Of a stretch of 64,000 bases of DNA, positions 8,032 through 14,516 are shown one piece after another (the stretch's first letter is position 1; each line of letters starts with the position of its first letter). The translations under genes were made by a program, and so were the position numbers. The stretch comes from Phaeacidiphilus oryzae TH49 (GTDB taxonomy: Bacteria; Actinomycetota; Actinomycetes; Streptomycetales; Streptomycetaceae). Below the pieces are notes generated by a model, which worked only from the letters and a program-made list of their open reading frames with translations, did no database searches and was not told the DNA's origin. Location: NCBI RefSeq assembly GCF_000744815.1, contig NZ_JQMQ01000005.1:5537801-5601800 (forward strand). Reading direction: 5' to 3'.

Positions 8032-9825
8032 TCAGCGCGCGTACAGCGCTTCCACCTCGCCCGCGAAGTCCCGCATCACGACCGCGCGCTTCAGCTTCAT
8101 CGACGGGGTGACGTAGCCGCCCTCCTCGGTCCACTCGGTGTCCAGCAGGCGGAACTTCTTCACCGCCTCCGCGTGCGACACCGCGCGGTTGCCGTCGTCG
8201 ATCGCCTCCTGGACGCCGGCCAGCACGTCCGGGTCGGACATCAGCGCGGCCCCGCTCAGCGTCTCCGGCTTGTCGTGGAGCTTCAGCCAGGTCGGGAGGA
8301 ACTCCCGGTCCAGCGTCACCAGGCAGCCCACGAACGGCTTGCCGTCCCCGACCACCATGCACTCGCCGACCAGCGGATGGGCCCGCACCCGGTCCTCGAT
8401 CACCGCGGGCGCGACGTTCTTGCCGCCCGCCGTGACGATGATCTCCTTCTTCCGCCCGGTGATCTTCAGGAAGCCCTTGTCGTCCAGTGTCCCGATGTCC
8501 CCGGTGTGGAACCAGCCGCCGCGCAGCGCCTCGGCCGACGCCTCCGGGTTGTTCCAGTACCCGGTGAACACCTGCGGCCCGGCCAGCAGCACCTCGCCGT
8601 CGTCCGCGATGGCCACCGCCGACCCCGGCAGCGGGCGCCCGACCGAGCCGATCACCGGCCCGTCGGCCGGGTTGTACGCGGTCGCCGCGCAGGTCTCGGT
8701 GAGCCCGTAGCCCTCCAGCACGGTGAAGCCGATGCCGCGGTAGAAGTGGCCGAGCCGCTCGCCGAGCGGCGCTCCGCCGGAGATCGCGTGGGTGGCCCGG
8801 CCGCCCAGCGCCGCCCGCAGCTTGCTGTAGACCAGCTTGTCGAAGGTCTTGTACTCGACCTTGAGCCGCAGCCCCGGCTTGCCCTCGTCGAGCGCCCGGC
8901 TGTGGTCCATGGCGATCTTCGCCGCCCGGTCGAAGATCTTGCCCTTCCCCTCGGCCTGCGCCTTGGCCCGCGCGGTGTTGTAGACCTTCTCGAAGACCCG
9001 GGGGACGCCGAGGATCAGGGTCGGCTTGAAGGCGCCCAGCTCCGCGGTGACCTCCTTGACGTCCGAGAGGTGGCCCAGCCGGATCGGCGCGACCGCGCAG
9101 GCGATCTCCGCGATCCGCCCCAGCACGTGCGCCTGCGGCAGGAAGAGCAGCACCGAGGCCTCGCCGGTGCGGAAGAGCTGCGGCAGGTCGGCGACGATGT
9201 TGCCGCACTCGTGGAGGAAGTTGCGGTGGGTCAGCGCGCAGCCCTTGGGCCGCCCGGTGGTGCCCGAGGTGTAGACGATGGTGGCGATGGAGTCGGCGCC
9301 CAGGGTGGCCCGGCGCTGGTGGACCAGTGCGGAGTCCAGGTCGTGGCCCTCCGCCTGGAGGTGCTCGACGGCGCCGCCCTCGATCTGCCAGACCTGCTTC
9401 AACTGCGGCAGCCGGTCCCGGACCTGGTTGACCGTCCGCTCGTGGGCGGCGGTCTCGGTGACGCAGGCCACCGCGCCGGAGTCGCCGAGGATCCACTCCA
9501 CCTGCTCGGCGGAGGAGGTCTCGTACACCGGGACGGTGATCGCCCCCGCGCACCAGATGGCGAAGTCCAGCAGGGTCCACTCGTAGCGGGTGCGGGACAT
9601 CAGGGCGACCCGGTCGCCGGCCTGCACACCGCCGGCGATCAGGCCCTTGGCGGTCCGGTGGACCTCGGCGAGGAACTGGGACGCGGTCAGATCCCGCCAG
9701 GACCCGCCCAGCTTGCGGCTGATCACGGCCGCGTCGGGAGTCCGCTCGGCGTTCCGGTGGATCAGATCGGTGAGGTTCGCTTCGGGCGCTACCTCGTAGA
9801 GAGCCGGAAGGCTGAACTCGCGCAA
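8032..9825 (-). CDS. fadD: Long-chain fatty-acid-CoA ligase
   Basis: 597-residue AMP-forming acyl-CoA synthetase of the FadD15 type. The P-loop-like YTSGTTGRPKG is at about 185-195, followed by the YGLTE motif, the TGD hinge motif (GWFHTGDIG) and the catalytic lysine region GRKKEIIVTAGGKNVAP. It activates long-chain fatty acids for lipid synthesis or beta-oxidation. The start is TTG at 9825, supported by CTAGGAG about 7 nt upstream. A palindrome in the promoter region suggests a repressor that senses fatty acid or acyl-CoA. Confidence 0.93.
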   Translation of the reverse strand: MREFSLPALYEVAPEANLTDLIHRNAERTPDAAVISRKLGGSWRDLTASQFLAEVHRTAKGLIAGGVQAGDRVALMSRTRYEWTLLDFAIWCAGAITVPVYETSSAEQVEWILGDSGAVACVTETAAHERTVNQVRDRLPQLKQVWQIEGGAVEHLQAEGHDLDSALVHQRRATLGADSIATIVYTSGTTGRPKGCALTHRNFLHECGNIVADLPQLFRTGEASVLLFLPQAHVLGRIAEIACAVAPIRLGHLSDVKEVTAELGAFKPTLILGVPRVFEKVYNTARAKAQAEGKGKIFDRAAKIAMDHSRALDEGKPGLRLKVEYKTFDKLVYSKLRAALGGRATHAISGGAPLGERLGHFYRGIGFTVLEGYGLTETCAATAYNPADGPVIGSVGRPLPGSAVAIADDGEVLLAGPQVFTGYWNNPEASAEALRGGWFHTGDIGTLDDKGFLKITGRKKEIIVTAGGKNVAPAVIEDRVRAHPLVGECMVVGDGKPFVGCLVTLDREFLPTWLKLHDKPETLSGAALMSDPDVLAGVQEAIDDGNRAVSHAEAVKKFRLLDTEWTEEGGYVTPSMKLKRAVVMRDFAGEVEALYAR

Positions 9826-10068: not shown

Positions 10069-10845
10069 ATGCGGGTCCACGTGGTGAGTGACGTACACGG
10101 CAACGCCGAAGCGCTGGCCCGCGCCGGTGACGGCGCCGACGCCCTGCTCTGCCTCGGCGACCTCATCCTCTTCCTGGACTACGCGGACCACTCGCGCGGC
10201 ATCTTCCCCGACCTCTTCGGCGCCGAGAACGCCTCCCGGATCGTCGCGCTGCGTACCGCCCGCCGCTTCGAGGAGGCCCGGGAGTTCTCCCGTGAACTGT
10301 GGGCCGGGATCACCGCCGATGGCACGGACCGCGCCCAGGTGATGCGGGACGCCGTCCGCCGCCAGTACGCCGAGCTCTTCGCCGCCTTCCCGGCCCCCAC
10401 CTACGCCACCTACGGCAACGTCGACATCCCGCCGCTTTGGCCGGAGTTCGAGCGGGACGGGGTGACCGTGCTGGACGGCGGCACGGCCAAGATAGGCGGC
10501 CGCACCTTCGGCTTCGTCGGCGGCGGGCTGCCCAGTCCGATGCGCACCCCGTACGAGGTCGACGAGGAGGAGTACGCGGCGAAGGTGGCCGCGGTCGGCG
10601 AGGTGGACGTCCTCTGCTGCCATATCCCGCCCGCCGTGCCGGAGTTGACCTATGACGTGGTGGCCCGCCGGTTCGAGCGCGGGAGCGAGGCGGTGCTGGA
10701 CGCGGTCCACCGCGTCCGCCCCCGGTACGTCCTGTTCGGCCATGTCCACCAGCCGCTGGTGCGCCGGCTGCGGATCGGCGGCACCGAGTGCGTCAACGTG
10801 GGCCACTTCCGCTCCACCGGCCGCCCCTGGGCGATGGAGTGGTGA
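10069..10845 (+). CDS. Calcineurin-like metallophosphoesterase
   Basis: 258 residues. Metallophos superfamily residues are visible in order: a DVHGN motif near the N-terminus, GDLI (Asp), GNVD (Asn-containing), a CHIPP histidine and a terminal GHVHQPL. These ligate a dimetal centre that hydrolyses phosphate esters or diesters. Length and compact form fit small YfcE/MPPED-like enzymes; the substrate cannot be read from sequence. The gene is probably transcribed leaderless, divergent from fadD, and monocistronic: the next gene has its own ribosome site after a 150-nt gap. Confidence 0.85.
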   Translation: MRVHVVSDVHGNAEALARAGDGADALLCLGDLILFLDYADHSRGIFPDLFGAENASRIVALRTARRFEEAREFSRELWAGITADGTDRAQVMRDAVRRQYAELFAAFPAPTYATYGNVDIPPLWPEFERDGVTVLDGGTAKIGGRTFGFVGGGLPSPMRTPYEVDEEEYAAKVAAVGEVDVLCCHIPPAVPELTYDVVARRFERGSEAVLDAVHRVRPRYVLFGHVHQPLVRRLRIGGTECVNVGHFRSTGRPWAMEW

Positions 10846-11002: not shown

Positions 11003-11446
11003 ATGGCGGAGCACACCAGGTCGAGCACGACGATCGGCGCGACCCCGGCCGAGGTGATGGCGGTGATCGCCGATTTCGCCGCGTACCCGCAGTGGACCGG
11101 AGAGGTGAAGGAGAGCGAGGTCGTCTCCGAGTTCCCGGACGGCCGCGCCGAGCAGGTGCGCTTCCTCCTGGACGCCGGCGCGATCCGCGACGAGCACACC
11201 CTGGAGTACACCTGGGAGGGCGACCGCAAGGTCAGCTGGACCCTGGTGAAGAGCCAGATGCTGCGCTCGCTGGACGGCGTCTACGCGCTGGACCCGGCGG
11301 CCGGCGGCGGCACCCAGGTCACCTACCAGCTCGCGGTGGACGTCAAGATCCCGATGCTCGGCATGATCAAGCGCAAGGCCGAGAAGGTGATCATCGACCG
11401 CGCGCTGGCCGGCCTGAAGAAGCGCGTCGAGGAACTCAAGGGCTGA
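11003..11446 (+). CDS. SRPBCC (START-like) lipid/ligand-binding protein
   Basis: 147 residues of the polyketide cyclase/SRPBCC fold: an N-terminal TRSSTTIGATPAEVMAVIADFAAYPQW strand-helix pattern, central beta strands, and a long C-terminal helix (KAEKVIIDRALAGLKKRVEELKG). Such proteins bind hydrophobic ligands. ATG 11003 has CGCGGAGG about 10 nt upstream. The ArsA-like ATPase follows 46 nt later and a third small gene after it. The conserved neighbourhood suggests joint work, perhaps membrane-lipid or tail-anchored cargo handling, which is speculative. Confidence 0.85.
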   Translation: MAEHTRSSTTIGATPAEVMAVIADFAAYPQWTGEVKESEVVSEFPDGRAEQVRFLLDAGAIRDEHTLEYTWEGDRKVSWTLVKSQMLRSLDGVYALDPAAGGGTQVTYQLAVDVKIPMLGMIKRKAEKVIIDRALAGLKKRVEELKG

Positions 11447-11492
11447 ACCAGGCATACCGGAAGAAACCGGACGACCCCGGGAGGAACGCGAG

Positions 11493-12785
11493 TTGAGCAC
11501 CGCCGCGGAGACGCCCCCGCACACGGTCGTGATCACCGGGCGCGGTGGCGCCGGGCGCACCACCGTCGCCGCGGCCACCGCGCTGCGCTCGGCCCGCGCC
11601 GGCCGCCGCACCCTCCTGGTCGCCGCCGACGACCCGCACCGCGGCCTCGACGAGCTGCTCGGCACCCGCCTGGGCCCGGTCCCCGGCGCGGTCGGCCCGG
11701 ACGGCGTCACCGGCCGCCTCCACGCCATGCGCCTGGACCCGCAGGCGGCCTTCCGCGAGGAGGCCGGCCGGCTGCTCGGCCGGGCCAAGACGGTCTTCGA
11801 CCTGTTCGGCGTGGAGCCGCTGGAGGAGGACGAGTTGACCGCCCTCCCGGGCGCCGGGAAGCTCACCCTCCTCCGCGCCCTGCGCGAGCACACCGCCTCG
11901 GGGGAGTGGCAGACGGTGGTCGTCGACGCCCCCTCCGCCGCCGAGACGATCGGCGCCTTCGCGCTGCCCGAGCAACTCGCCCGCTATGTCGCCCGGCTGC
12001 TGCCCCAGGAGCGCCGGGCCGCCCGTTCGCTCCGCCCGATCCTGGCCGCGGTCGCCGGGGTCCCGATGCCCGCCGACTGGCTGTTCGAGGGCGCCGCCTG
12101 GGCCGAGGCCGAGCTCGGCGAGCTGCGCGCCGCCGCCGAGTCCCCGGAGCTCTCGGTCCGCCTGGTGGCCACCCCCGGCTCCGCCTCGGCCCCCGAACTC
12201 CGGCTCGCCCGTGCCGGCTTGGCGCTCTACGGCCACCGGGTGGACGCGGTGATCGCCAACCGCGTCGTACCGGCCCCGCCGGCGGAGGCATCCGGCCGGG
12301 AGGACGGCTTCCTGGGCCGCCTCCACGCCGCGCAGCGCGAGGAACTCGCCGCCATGCGCGAGGAGTTGGCCGCCGGTGCGGCCACGCCGCTGCTGGAGCT
12401 GCCGCACCTCGGCCGCGACCCGCGGGGCTGGGAGGACCTGGCCCGACTCGCCGACGCCGCCGACGCCGACGCCGCCGACGGCTCCGGCCTCGGCGCCGAC
12501 GGCTCCGCCGATCCGCCCCCGCGCTCCCACGTCGAGGACCGGCTCGCCGCCGACGGCCTGCTGGTCTGGCATGTGCCGCTGCCCGGCGCCGCCCGCCCCG
12601 ACCTCGACCTGGTCCGCCGAGGGGACGAACTCCTGGTCGCCGTCGGCCCCTACCGCCGGACCCTGCCGCTGCCCTCCGCGCTGCGCCGGTGCACCGTCGC
12701 GGGCGCCGGGCTGCGCGACGCCGTGCTCTCCGTGCGCTTCCGCCCGGACCCGGGTCTCTGGCCCGCGGCGCGCCCGCAAACCTGA
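11493..12785 (+). CDS. ArsA/Get3-like P-loop ATPase with arginine-substituted Walker A
   Basis: 430 residues resembling ArsA/TRC40 ATPases. The N-terminal P-loop reads TGRGGAGRTT (residues 15-24), where canonical members have GKGGVGKT; both lysines (signature and P-loop) are Arg here (Arg17, Arg22). The DDPHRGLDELLG switch-I-like region, VVDAPSAAETI (switch II) and VIANR motifs are retained. The TTG start at 11493 is supported by GGGAGG about 9 nt upstream. It lies between SRPBCC and a DUF5304-like gene. Nucleotide hydrolysis may be weak or lost; I infer a nucleotide-sensing or scaffold role. Confidence 0.8.
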   Translation: MSTAAETPPHTVVITGRGGAGRTTVAAATALRSARAGRRTLLVAADDPHRGLDELLGTRLGPVPGAVGPDGVTGRLHAMRLDPQAAFREEAGRLLGRAKTVFDLFGVEPLEEDELTALPGAGKLTLLRALREHTASGEWQTVVVDAPSAAETIGAFALPEQLARYVARLLPQERRAARSLRPILAAVAGVPMPADWLFEGAAWAEAELGELRAAAESPELSVRLVATPGSASAPELRLARAGLALYGHRVDAVIANRVVPAPPAEASGREDGFLGRLHAAQREELAAMREELAAGAATPLLELPHLGRDPRGWEDLARLADAADADAADGSGLGADGSADPPPRSHVEDRLAADGLLVWHVPLPGAARPDLDLVRRGDELLVAVGPYRRTLPLPSALRRCTVAGAGLRDAVLSVRFRPDPGLWPAARPQT

Positions 12786-12860: not shown

Positions 12861-13406
12861 ATGAACGCTTCGAGTGGTTGGCCCGGCCGGGACGAGCCGG
12901 AGGACGTCTGGGCGGAGGCCGTCGCCGAGGATGCCGCTGAACAGCGGCGCCGGGCGCGCGAGGCAGCCGCCCGCGCCGAGGAGTGCGCGCGGGCCGAGGC
13001 CGAGGCGGGCGGTGAGTCCGGTGCCGGGCCCGAGGACGCGGAGCGGGCCGGGCGGCCGGGGTCGGCCGAGCCGTCCAGTCCCTTCGGCCCCGATCTCAGC
13101 AACCTCGTGGACGAGGTGCGCCGCCTCGCCGGCACCGTGGGCGAGCGGCTGCAGCAGGCCTCCGACGCGGTCACCGCGACCCATGAGGCCACCGACGGGC
13201 TGCAGCGGCTCACCGCCCCGCTGCGCGAGAAGCACCCCGAGGTGTACCGCCATCTCGCCGCCGCGGGAGGCGAGTTGCTCGCCGCCTACCGGGCGGCCGT
13301 CACCGGCCACGAGCGCCGCTGGACCTCCGGAACGAGCGGTTCCGGGCCCGGCGAGGACGACGGCGAAGGGCCCGGCAACGCGGGCGAACACATCGACCTC
13401 GACTGA
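12861..13406 (+). CDS. Small acidic hypothetical protein (DUF5304-like)
   Basis: 181 residues, Glu/Ala/Gly-rich, without signal peptide or membrane segment. The first 70 residues are low complexity. Residues about 78-145 contain a helical block (LSNLVDEVRRLAGTVGERLQQASDAV ... LREKHPEVYRHLAAAGGELLAAYRAAV) that is probably the conserved part. ATG 12861 follows AGAGGGGAG. I recall proteins like this (DUF5304) preceding glucokinase in Streptomyces, but no function is known to me. Confidence 0.7.
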   Translation: MNASSGWPGRDEPEDVWAEAVAEDAAEQRRRAREAAARAEECARAEAEAGGESGAGPEDAERAGRPGSAEPSSPFGPDLSNLVDEVRRLAGTVGERLQQASDAVTATHEATDGLQRLTAPLREKHPEVYRHLAAAGGELLAAYRAAVTGHERRWTSGTSGSGPGEDDGEGPGNAGEHIDLD

Positions 13407-13574: not shown

Positions 13575-14516
13575 ATGGGACTCACCATTGGCGTCGATGT
13601 CGGAGGCACCAAGATTGCGGCGGGTGTCGTCGACGAGCAGGGTGCGATCCTCGCCCGTACGCGCGTGCCGACCCCGGCCGACCCGCAGTGGGCGGTCGGC
13701 GCCATCGCCGACGCGATCAAGGAGCTGCGAGGGCAGTACCCCGACGTCGAGGCGGTGGGCGTGGGCGCCCCCGGCTACGTCGACCGGGCCCGCTCCACGG
13801 TGCTGATGGCGCCGAACATCGACTGGGAGAACGAGCCGCTCAAGGTCCGCATCGAGGACCTGGTCGACCTCCCGACCGTGATCGAGAACGACGCCAACTC
13901 GGCCGCCTGGGGTGAGTTCCGCTTCGGCGCCGGCGCCGAGTACGAGGACATGGTGCTGATCACGGTCGGCACCGGCATCGGCGGCGGCATCGTCCTCGAC
14001 GGCCGGCTGCACCGGGGCGCCTTCGGCGTCGCCGGCGAGATCGGCCACATCAACATGATCCCGGACGGCCTGCTCTGCGGCTGCGGCAAGCACGGCTGCT
14101 GGGAGCAGTACGGCTCCGGCCGCGCGCTCCGCCGCTACGGCCGTGAGCGCGCCGCGGCCGACCCGGTGCGCGGCAAGCGGATGCTGGAGCTGAACGAGGG
14201 CGTCGCCGAGACGATCCGCGGGGTGCACATCACCCAGGCCGCGGAGGAGGGCGACCCGCTGGCCCTGGAGTGCTACGACGAGCTCGCCGACTGGCTGGGC
14301 CGGGGCCTCGCCGACCTGGCCGCCTCCTTCGACCCGTCGGTCTTCGTCCTCGGCGGCGGCGTCGCCGACTCCGGCGAGCTGCTGCGGGCGCCGGTCGCGA
14401 AGAGCTTCGAGAAGTACGTGGTGGGCGGCCCCCACCGCCCCCGCGCGGACATCACCCTCGCCACGATGGGCTCCGAGGCGGGCATCGCCGGCGCGGCCGA
14501 CCTGGCCCGGGTCTGA
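13575..14516 (+). CDS. glkA: ROK-family glucokinase
   Basis: 313 residues, close to Streptomyces Glk in length. ROK motifs: DVGGTKIAAGVVDE (phosphate loop), ENDANSAAWGE (sugar binding and catalytic Asp), VGTGIGGGIVLDG, and the zinc signature GHINM...CGCGKHGCWEQYGSG. It phosphorylates glucose with ATP and, in streptomycetes, is the hub of glucose repression. ATG 13575 has TTGAGGG just upstream. The 168-nt upstream gap is relatively AT-rich around 13470-13500 and has a TAATGT (13494-13499) that could be a -10, without a clear -35. Confidence 0.95.
   Translation: MGLTIGVDVGGTKIAAGVVDEQGAILARTRVPTPADPQWAVGAIADAIKELRGQYPDVEAVGVGAPGYVDRARSTVLMAPNIDWENEPLKVRIEDLVDLPTVIENDANSAAWGEFRFGAGAEYEDMVLITVGTGIGGGIVLDGRLHRGAFGVAGEIGHINMIPDGLLCGCGKHGCWEQYGSGRALRRYGRERAAADPVRGKRMLELNEGVAETIRGVHITQAAEEGDPLALECYDELADWLGRGLADLAASFDPSVFVLGGGVADSGELLRAPVAKSFEKYVVGGPHRPRADITLATMGSEAGIAGAADLARV

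Follow-up and report, generated by a model that had tools for sequence, protein, structure and literature searches.

An actinobacterial orthogroup that combines an ArsA/Get3 core with an alpha-crystallin-like domain, the architecture of Get3d, has in Streptomyces and relatives lost key residues, and in one genus the whole motif, with which such proteins use ATP. Because the gene and its SRPBCC neighbour are kept despite this loss, comparison of the sequences suggests that the chaperone fold probably works in these bacteria without burning ATP. The member described here lies in a stretch of 64,000 nucleotides from Phaeacidiphilus oryzae TH49 (the window), whose relevant features are listed in Table 1. 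Its reading frame opens with TTG, and the sequence GGAGG is found at 11480-11484, 8 nt 5' of the start.

Table 1. Features of the ArsA-like locus, in window coordinates (aa, residues of the ArsA-like protein)
Feature	Coordinates	Strand	Basis
ArsA/Get3 protein of Get3d architecture, degenerate P-loop, 430 aa	11493..12785	+	ORF reading, PF02374, PF17886, AF2 model
P-loop GRGGAGRTT, aa 16-24	11538..11564	+	ORF translation and family survey
Switch I AADDPHRGLDE, aa 44-54	11622..11654	+	Asp46 retained, STDxAHSL consensus gone
Switch II region TVVVDAPSAAETIGAFALP, aa 141-159	11913..11969	+	Asp145 retained, DCAPTAETLRLL consensus gone
Helices aa 163-210, assumed to belong to the client-binding domain	11979..12122	+	Helical in model; conservation, dN/dS
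C-terminal alpha-crystallin-like domain, about aa 350-420	12540..12752	+	PF17886 at 357-416; beta strands in model
SRPBCC (START-like) protein, 147 aa, 46 bp upstream of the ArsA-like gene	11003..11446	+	PF10604, 64.7 bits
DUF5304 protein, 181 aa, 75 bp downstream of the ArsA-like gene	12861..13406	+	PF17230, 75.6 bits
ROK glucokinase, conserved neighbour	13575..14516	+	TIGR00744, 352 bits over cut-off 260
Metallophosphoesterase, frequent upstream neighbour	10069..10845	+	PF00149
Acyl-CoA-synthetase-like AMP-binding enzyme, frequent divergent neighbour	8032..9825	-	PF00501, 251 bits

The initial annotation had read this gene as an ArsA/Get3-like ATPase with both P-loop lysines replaced by arginine. 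The identity is borne out by PF02374 (ArsA_ATPase, 102.3 bits against a cut-off of 24.3) and the replacement by the translation, in which Arg17 occupies the position of the signature (intermonomer) lysine and Arg22 that of the Walker lysine, so the protein departs from the intradimeric deviant Walker A motif GKGGhGK[ST]. The annotation had both lysines acting across the dimer, which is right for the signature lysine but not for the second, the ordinary cis Walker lysine (PMC10248533). To it the switch regions had also seemed intact; the aspartates Asp46 and Asp145 are indeed kept, but the surrounding consensus is lost, AADDPHRGL replacing the canonical STDxAHSL in switch I and DAPSAAETIGAF replacing DCAPTAETLRLL in switch II. 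The C-terminal crystallin domain, absent from that annotation, was found by PF17886 (ArsA_HSP20, 59.2 bits against a cut-off of 22.5, residues 357-416).

Neither a sequencing artefact nor a GC-driven drift from Lys to Arg accounts for the loss, because it is common to relatives and because the Walker lysine is present in seven of the eight other P-loop ATPases found at ArsA-profile matches in the same genome (BagA with GKGGTGKTT, BagB with GSGGVGKTT, one protein each with GKGGSGKTT and GKGGVGKSS, and three with KGGVGKTT). The eighth, with GRGGAGAST, is of the Ssd type (TIGR03815, 242 bits; L011 1480-2217, near 3814389 of C5), a deviant-Walker protein without the lysines. Of the orthologues read, none but that of the window genome has the exact double arginine, since two further rows that show it (L051 and G272, one genome) are out-of-frame readings of a frameshifted gene; a conserved Arg-Arg pair was therefore rejected, the first position being mostly Pro or Ala in the relatives. 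In that genome, Streptacidiphilus sp. 4-A2, the ArsA-like gene (L051 5451-7202) is split over two reading frames, and the acyl-CoA synthetase, metallophosphoesterase and glucokinase neighbours are split too, which points to assembly errors.

The AlphaFold2 model of the window protein (mean pLDDT 83.6, pTM 0.85, 15 aligned sequences) has NosGet3d as its best match in the PDB (8egk_A, Z 32.2, 344 aligned residues, rmsd 3.0, 24% identity). After a second entry of NosGet3d comes AtGet3d (8elf_A, Z 27.8), so that no other protein matches the model as well as these two; the archaeal Get3 3zq6_D is next with Z 26.8, the margin of 8elf over it being small for a predicted single chain. The alignments of the Get3d entries extend over the C-terminal domain, those of the 47 further entries listed end at residues 321-335, and Foldseek likewise places NosGet3d first. 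On the strength of these matches the window protein is assigned the Get3d architecture. It belongs to an actinobacterial orthogroup of that architecture; PF02374 and PF17886 are both found in 16/16 members of an alignment mixing canonical and degenerate forms. As in Get3d, the CXXC zinc motif is absent (the translation holds a single Cys). The signature lysine that marks Get3d is replaced by Arg17 and is missing from 117/118 family genomes. The window protein scores below the cut-offs of the named groups: 80.3 bits against an equivalog cut-off of 325 for NF050088 (NosAFP), 95.7 against a subfamily cut-off of 135 for TIGR00345 (GET3/ArsA/TRC40), 34.2 and 56.1 against equivalog cut-offs of 400 and 521 for BagA and BagB, and 40.8 against an equivalog cut-off of 650 for the arsenical pump ATPase ArsA (TIGR04291).

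The survey of orthologues comprised a first search, with a match in 58/61 relatives (some only through a distant paralogue), and a profile search, with a match in 104/197 genomes of the class and 149/150 of the family; 93/197 class genomes gave no match at 1e-40. We aligned 156 orthologous loci, from 141 genomes and 15 named contigs, a set in which at least one genome occurs twice (L047 = G035) and one row, L051, is frameshifted. It covers 99 of the 104 matching class genomes (G091, G098, G146, G197 and G227 were left out) and, in family f3, nine of the 14 genomes with a match in the first search. Lysine stands at both positions, the form we call canonical, in 67/156 loci from 24 families, and 89/156 are non-canonical, here also called degenerate. 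Every row read is canonical in f2, f4, f10-f16, f19, f22, f24, f26, f28, f29, f31, f32, f34, f35, f37, f40 and f42. Non-canonical forms make up all 48 loci of f1 (Streptomycetaceae), all nine of f3 (GKGGSGVTT or GPGGAGTTT), 14/15 of f20 (G238 is canonical), 2/10 of f6, the single locus of f30 and all 15 named contigs, 12 of them from Streptomyces, Kitasatospora or Streptacidiphilus and three from Williamsia. The f20 loci L147-L160, of the GKGGGGTTT type, keep the signature lysine and have Thr for the Walker lysine, an order of loss unlike that in Streptomycetaceae; of the two f6 rows, G166 retains the Walker lysine (GPGGAGKST) and G177 has neither.

Within Streptomycetaceae, 121 of the 149 genomes with a match were read, 73 of them in addition to the aligned loci (28 were not fetched), and three of these were set aside (G272 for its frameshift, G273 and G325 at contig ends), leaving 118 readable genomes. 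The initial annotation had named lysines in close relatives as the sign of an artefact; that objection falls away, the Walker lysine being kept in 0/118 of these genomes and the signature lysine in 1/118 (G009). The frame of the P-loop, lysine-less at the Walker position, is present in 98/118, all 98 with the switch II Asp. Among these the signature position varies (Pro in 39, Ala in 24, Leu in 9, other residues in the rest), whereas at the Walker position Arg predominates with 87, followed by Thr (6), Ala (3), Ser (1) and Val (1). The switch I Asp is kept in 38/48 f1 loci and lost in 10/48.

In the remaining 20/118 neither P-loop motif nor switch II Asp is present, and this set coincides with the genomes read from one genus, g14 (20 of the 38 listed). 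We call it Kitasatospora after G035 (L047) and G250 (L043); G253 (L042, Streptomyces sp. NRRL B-24484) is a further member. Here the P-loop stretch is 1-3 residues shorter and the motif is erased, for example GEGSAVVAAA for GRGGAGRTTVAAA. The model of one such protein (L043; pLDDT 84.4, pTM 0.85) equals that of the window protein in confidence and has NosGet3d as its best structural match (Z 29.2), so the fold is predicted to stay Get3d-like without the motif.

These two groups of genomes bear in opposite ways on the idea, put forward in the initial annotation, that the protein binds nucleotide and hydrolyses it weakly: the Arg P-loop would bind ATP, ADP or phosphate and hold the dimer closed with little hydrolysis. 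As a property of the window protein and of the 98/118 genomes with P-loop frame and switch II Asp this is possible from the sequences, with Arg at the Walker position in 87/98 while the signature position is free; moreover, AtGet3d was crystallised with phosphate at this site and NosGet3d, with Arg there, is a slow ATPase with a KM near 350 uM (PMC10248533). As an explanation of what the conserved protein does, a nucleotide switch without turnover seems to us unlikely, if still a serious contender: all 20 g14 genomes read keep the gene without motif or switch II Asp, one of their proteins (L043) is predicted to have the same fold, and the switch I Asp is lost in 10/48 loci. As 20/20 genomes read of g14 do without motif and switch II Asp, the conserved role is unlikely to require nucleotide binding itself.

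A single shared origin of the losses was rejected. On a maximum-likelihood tree of 92 rows, built after removal of the P-loop and switch columns and of unknown root, the label canonical or degenerate changes four times, all four changes being forced by starred branches (bootstrap range 4-5), where degenerate means only that Lys is not present at both positions: G166 lost the signature lysine alone, and the degenerate f20 rows the Walker lysine alone. Counted as irreversible, the losses are five, namely the window's own family with f3, f20, G166, G177 with Williamsia, and G078; the grouping of f1 with f3 may reflect long-branch attraction, and G166, G177 and G078 are long branches. We infer from the superfamily consensus that the canonical form is ancestral and that the changes are losses rather than gains, and at least one lysine thus appears to have been lost four to five times on this tree.

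The initial annotation had correctly named the SRPBCC and DUF5304 genes as neighbours and had proposed a survey of their co-occurrence: an SRPBCC gene immediately precedes the ArsA-like gene, in the same orientation, in 154/156 loci (89/89 degenerate and 65/67 canonical), the sequence breaking off at a contig end in G132 and the flank being short in G101, the two exceptions, and DUF5304 was detected downstream in 111/156 (73 degenerate, 38 canonical), a lower bound because DUF5304 evolves fast. The glucokinase gene follows in 146/156 loci (87 degenerate, 59 canonical), and the metallophosphoesterase and acyl-CoA synthetase genes were seen in 98/156 and 94/156, counts limited by the many loci with flanks of only 1.5 kb. 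What had been described as a small unit is a conserved actinobacterial neighbourhood, and its SRPBCC association probably predates the lysine loss, being common to canonical and degenerate families. In M. tuberculosis we take Rv2185c and Rv2184c to be the SRPBCC and ArsA-like orthologues. Two tandem ROK kinase genes stand behind the ArsA-like gene in f28 loci such as L111, L121 and L124, and also in L146 (f42) and L113 (f32).

By its place beside the glucokinase gene, the DUF5304 gene is probably the orthologue of Streptomyces SCO2127, which is adjacent to glkA (SCO2126; PMC8115908) and has been credited with effects on glucose uptake, glucose kinase, the regulation of actinorhodin and carbon catabolite control. 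The ArsA-like gene corresponds by position to SCO2128, for which the open-licence papers searched gave no match.

A rival account takes the gene to be a dispensable relic in slow decay, retained by its place in the operon. In one Streptomycetaceae genome (G014, 98% complete, 2 contigs) the ArsA-like gene is gone, with no match at 1e-40, and SRPBCC lies directly beside DUF5304, both kept (L191 5590-6612); the gene is thus not indispensable. Among six genomes searched for SRPBCC (five class genomes without a match and G014) it is present in four, and three of these, G056, G057 and G059 (L192, L193 and L194), keep it with no ArsA-like gene detected in the fetched stretch. The frameshifted Streptacidiphilus gene (L051/G272) and a whole-gene dN/dS above that of canonical relatives fit decay as well. 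Yet a match is found in 149/150 family genomes, and the dN/dS of 0.28 for the whole gene and of 0.13 for the client-binding helices, the latter below the canonical value, argue against it, so that we regard decay towards gene loss as improbable. In G056, G057 and G059 a glucokinase or endonuclease gene comes directly next, and the middle gene may have been lost independently in these genomes, which lie outside the family; in G014 no glucokinase lies between DUF5304 and the endonuclease gene within the fetched 10.5 kb.

Where selection still acts was examined in two ways. The frequency of the modal residue was compared over nine stretches between f1 (48 loci) and the canonical set (67), and since the canonical set spans many families, f1 would be expected to be the more conserved throughout. 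It is so only in the helices 163-210 (0.79 vs 0.62) and in the crystallin domain (0.78 vs 0.64); it is lower in switch II (0.68 vs 0.88), the switch I region (0.57 vs 0.74), residues 211-262 (0.62 vs 0.77) and residues 63-98 (0.49 vs 0.63), with little difference in the P-loop stretch (0.82 vs 0.86). The second measure, dN/dS, was calculated by the simple Nei-Gojobori method on chosen pairs of 72-97% identity, 16 from Streptomycetaceae and 22 canonical, two groups that differ in breadth. It is higher in the family at the P-loop (0.18 vs 0.06), switch I (0.28 vs 0.10), switch II (0.17 vs 0.04) and residues 211-262 (0.33 vs 0.14), lower in the client-binding helices (0.13 vs 0.19), equal in the crystallin domain (0.20 vs 0.20) and higher over the whole gene (0.28 vs 0.18). 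For SRPBCC it is 0.14 in 16 pairs of the degenerate side and 0.24 in 20 canonical pairs. By these estimates selection is relaxed on the catalytic motifs and not on the client-binding helices or the crystallin domain; the gene is open and syntenic in nearly all family genomes, with purifying selection strongest on the helices. A P-loop dN/dS of 0.18 still denotes constraint and speaks for some remaining role of the loop outside Kitasatospora; together with the Walker Arg in 87/98, the switch II Asp in 98/98 and the switch I Asp in 38/48, it suggests that some binding of phosphate or nucleotide is probably still selected there.

The reading to which we lean, by a modest degree, is that the protein is a pseudo-ATPase of Get3d type that acts with the SRPBCC protein as a nucleotide-independent holder of hydrophobic clients. 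It consists of the ArsA/Get3 core, the helical client-binding domain and the alpha-crystallin-like domain and is presumably a homodimer, with ATP hydrolysis probably absent or vestigial in Streptomycetaceae. A hydrophobic client, either a lipid chain or a segment of a membrane protein, would be held in the helical chamber by this holder or scaffold, and the adjacent SRPBCC protein, to judge by gene order alone, may be a partner or a client-exchange factor. The helices conserved in the family are Arg-rich and may bind protein rather than lipid. ATP could be dispensable because proteins of the Get3d type are already closed around their chamber without nucleotide. Get3d is reported to be closed in the apo state with a hydrophobic chamber, to capture a tail-anchored protein also when the crystallin domain is missing, to have no A-loop and to be a slow ATPase (kcat 1.10 per min for AtGet3d and 0.28 for NosGet3d; PMC10248533), and these properties make independence from ATP plausible. 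Loss of turnover would have come first, followed in Kitasatospora by that of nucleotide binding, with SRPBCC as the constant partner; in actinobacteria with GKGGVGKTT, ATP would gate the same step. Against this reading stand the signs of phosphate or nucleotide binding outside Kitasatospora, the slow ATPase of NosGet3d with its Walker Arg, the absence of the gene from G014 and the whole-gene dN/dS, above the canonical value, which also fits a general relaxation. A bolder proposal, distinctly possible though we would not call it probable, is that Kitasatospora has a natural ATP-independent Get3, which has lost its nucleotide site but retained the chamber and crystallin domains and which forms with SRPBCC a two-part carrier of hydrophobic clients (lipids or membrane segments), the shedding of ATPase residues having begun at least four times in actinobacteria.

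A pseudo-ATPase could instead serve as one subunit of a heterodimer, pairing with and modulating an ArsA-type protein that has the Walker lysine. Candidates exist, the window genome having adjacent BagA and BagB genes (459.9 bits over 400 and 622.2 over 521) with the Walker lysine present, and PDB 6bs3, titled Get3-like A and B, is a precedent for ArsA-type pairing. The Bag genes, however, lie 1.75 Mb away, and BagB-like second matches occur in genomes with either form (for example G037 and G060 canonical, G026 degenerate) and so do not track the lysine loss; we hold such a pairing to be very improbable. BagA and BagB (Rv3679/Rv3680, the mycobacterial Get3-like pair of 6bs3) share the actinobacterial ArsA/Get3 fold with the window protein and are separate paralogues of it.

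Other deviant-Walker proteins, the Ssd/CpaE type and type 1 beta-McdA, are likewise without one or both lysines; they belong to the ParA/MinD branch and not to ArsA/Get3, and we know of no crystallin domain in them. Loss of the signature lysine alone is compatible with a working ATPase, as type 1 beta-McdA is without it (PMC8262871). The closest known relatives remain the Get3d proteins (NosGet3d 8egk/3igf and AtGet3d 8elf; J Biol Chem 2023, PMC10248533), which share the ArsA/Get3 core, the C-terminal alpha-crystallin domain and the lack of CXXC. NosGet3d, from Nostoc, even has Arg at the Walker lysine position, as in the window protein, and still hydrolyses ATP at the rate given above (PMC10248533). 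Get3d, however, retains the signature lysine, lost in the window's family, and has a measured ATPase; its described range is green and purple bacteria, cyanobacteria and land plants, whereas the orthogroup studied here is actinobacterial with an SRPBCC neighbour (PMC10248533).

An earlier survey of ArsA homologues described, as its Cluster 10, a group confined to Actinobacteria whose proteins of 400-436 aa were judged orthologous (Int J Microbiol 2010, PMC2963123); by size and taxa it is probably the same orthogroup. That description includes neither a member from Streptomyces nor a crystallin domain, a loss of the P-loop or an SRPBCC neighbour, and the main text does not mention Streptomyces; that of PMC10248533 mentions neither actinobacteria nor Streptomyces. 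Among open-licence papers, these two included, no description was found of the P-loop loss in this orthogroup, nor in that literature any joint treatment of DUF5304, SRPBCC and ArsA in Streptomyces, nor any of an actinobacterial Get3 with tail-anchored proteins or as a pseudoenzyme.

The Get3d architecture is thus seen in a widespread SRPBCC-linked actinobacterial locus, which in Streptomyces stands beside the glucokinase gene and, by position, SCO2127. Get3 and ArsA are textbook examples of targeting factors cycled by ATP, and here one and the same locus is found with a complete site, with a lysine-less loop, with no motif or with no gene; this series of states offers a ready-made means to ask what ATP does in proteins of the Get3d type, which are closed without nucleotide.
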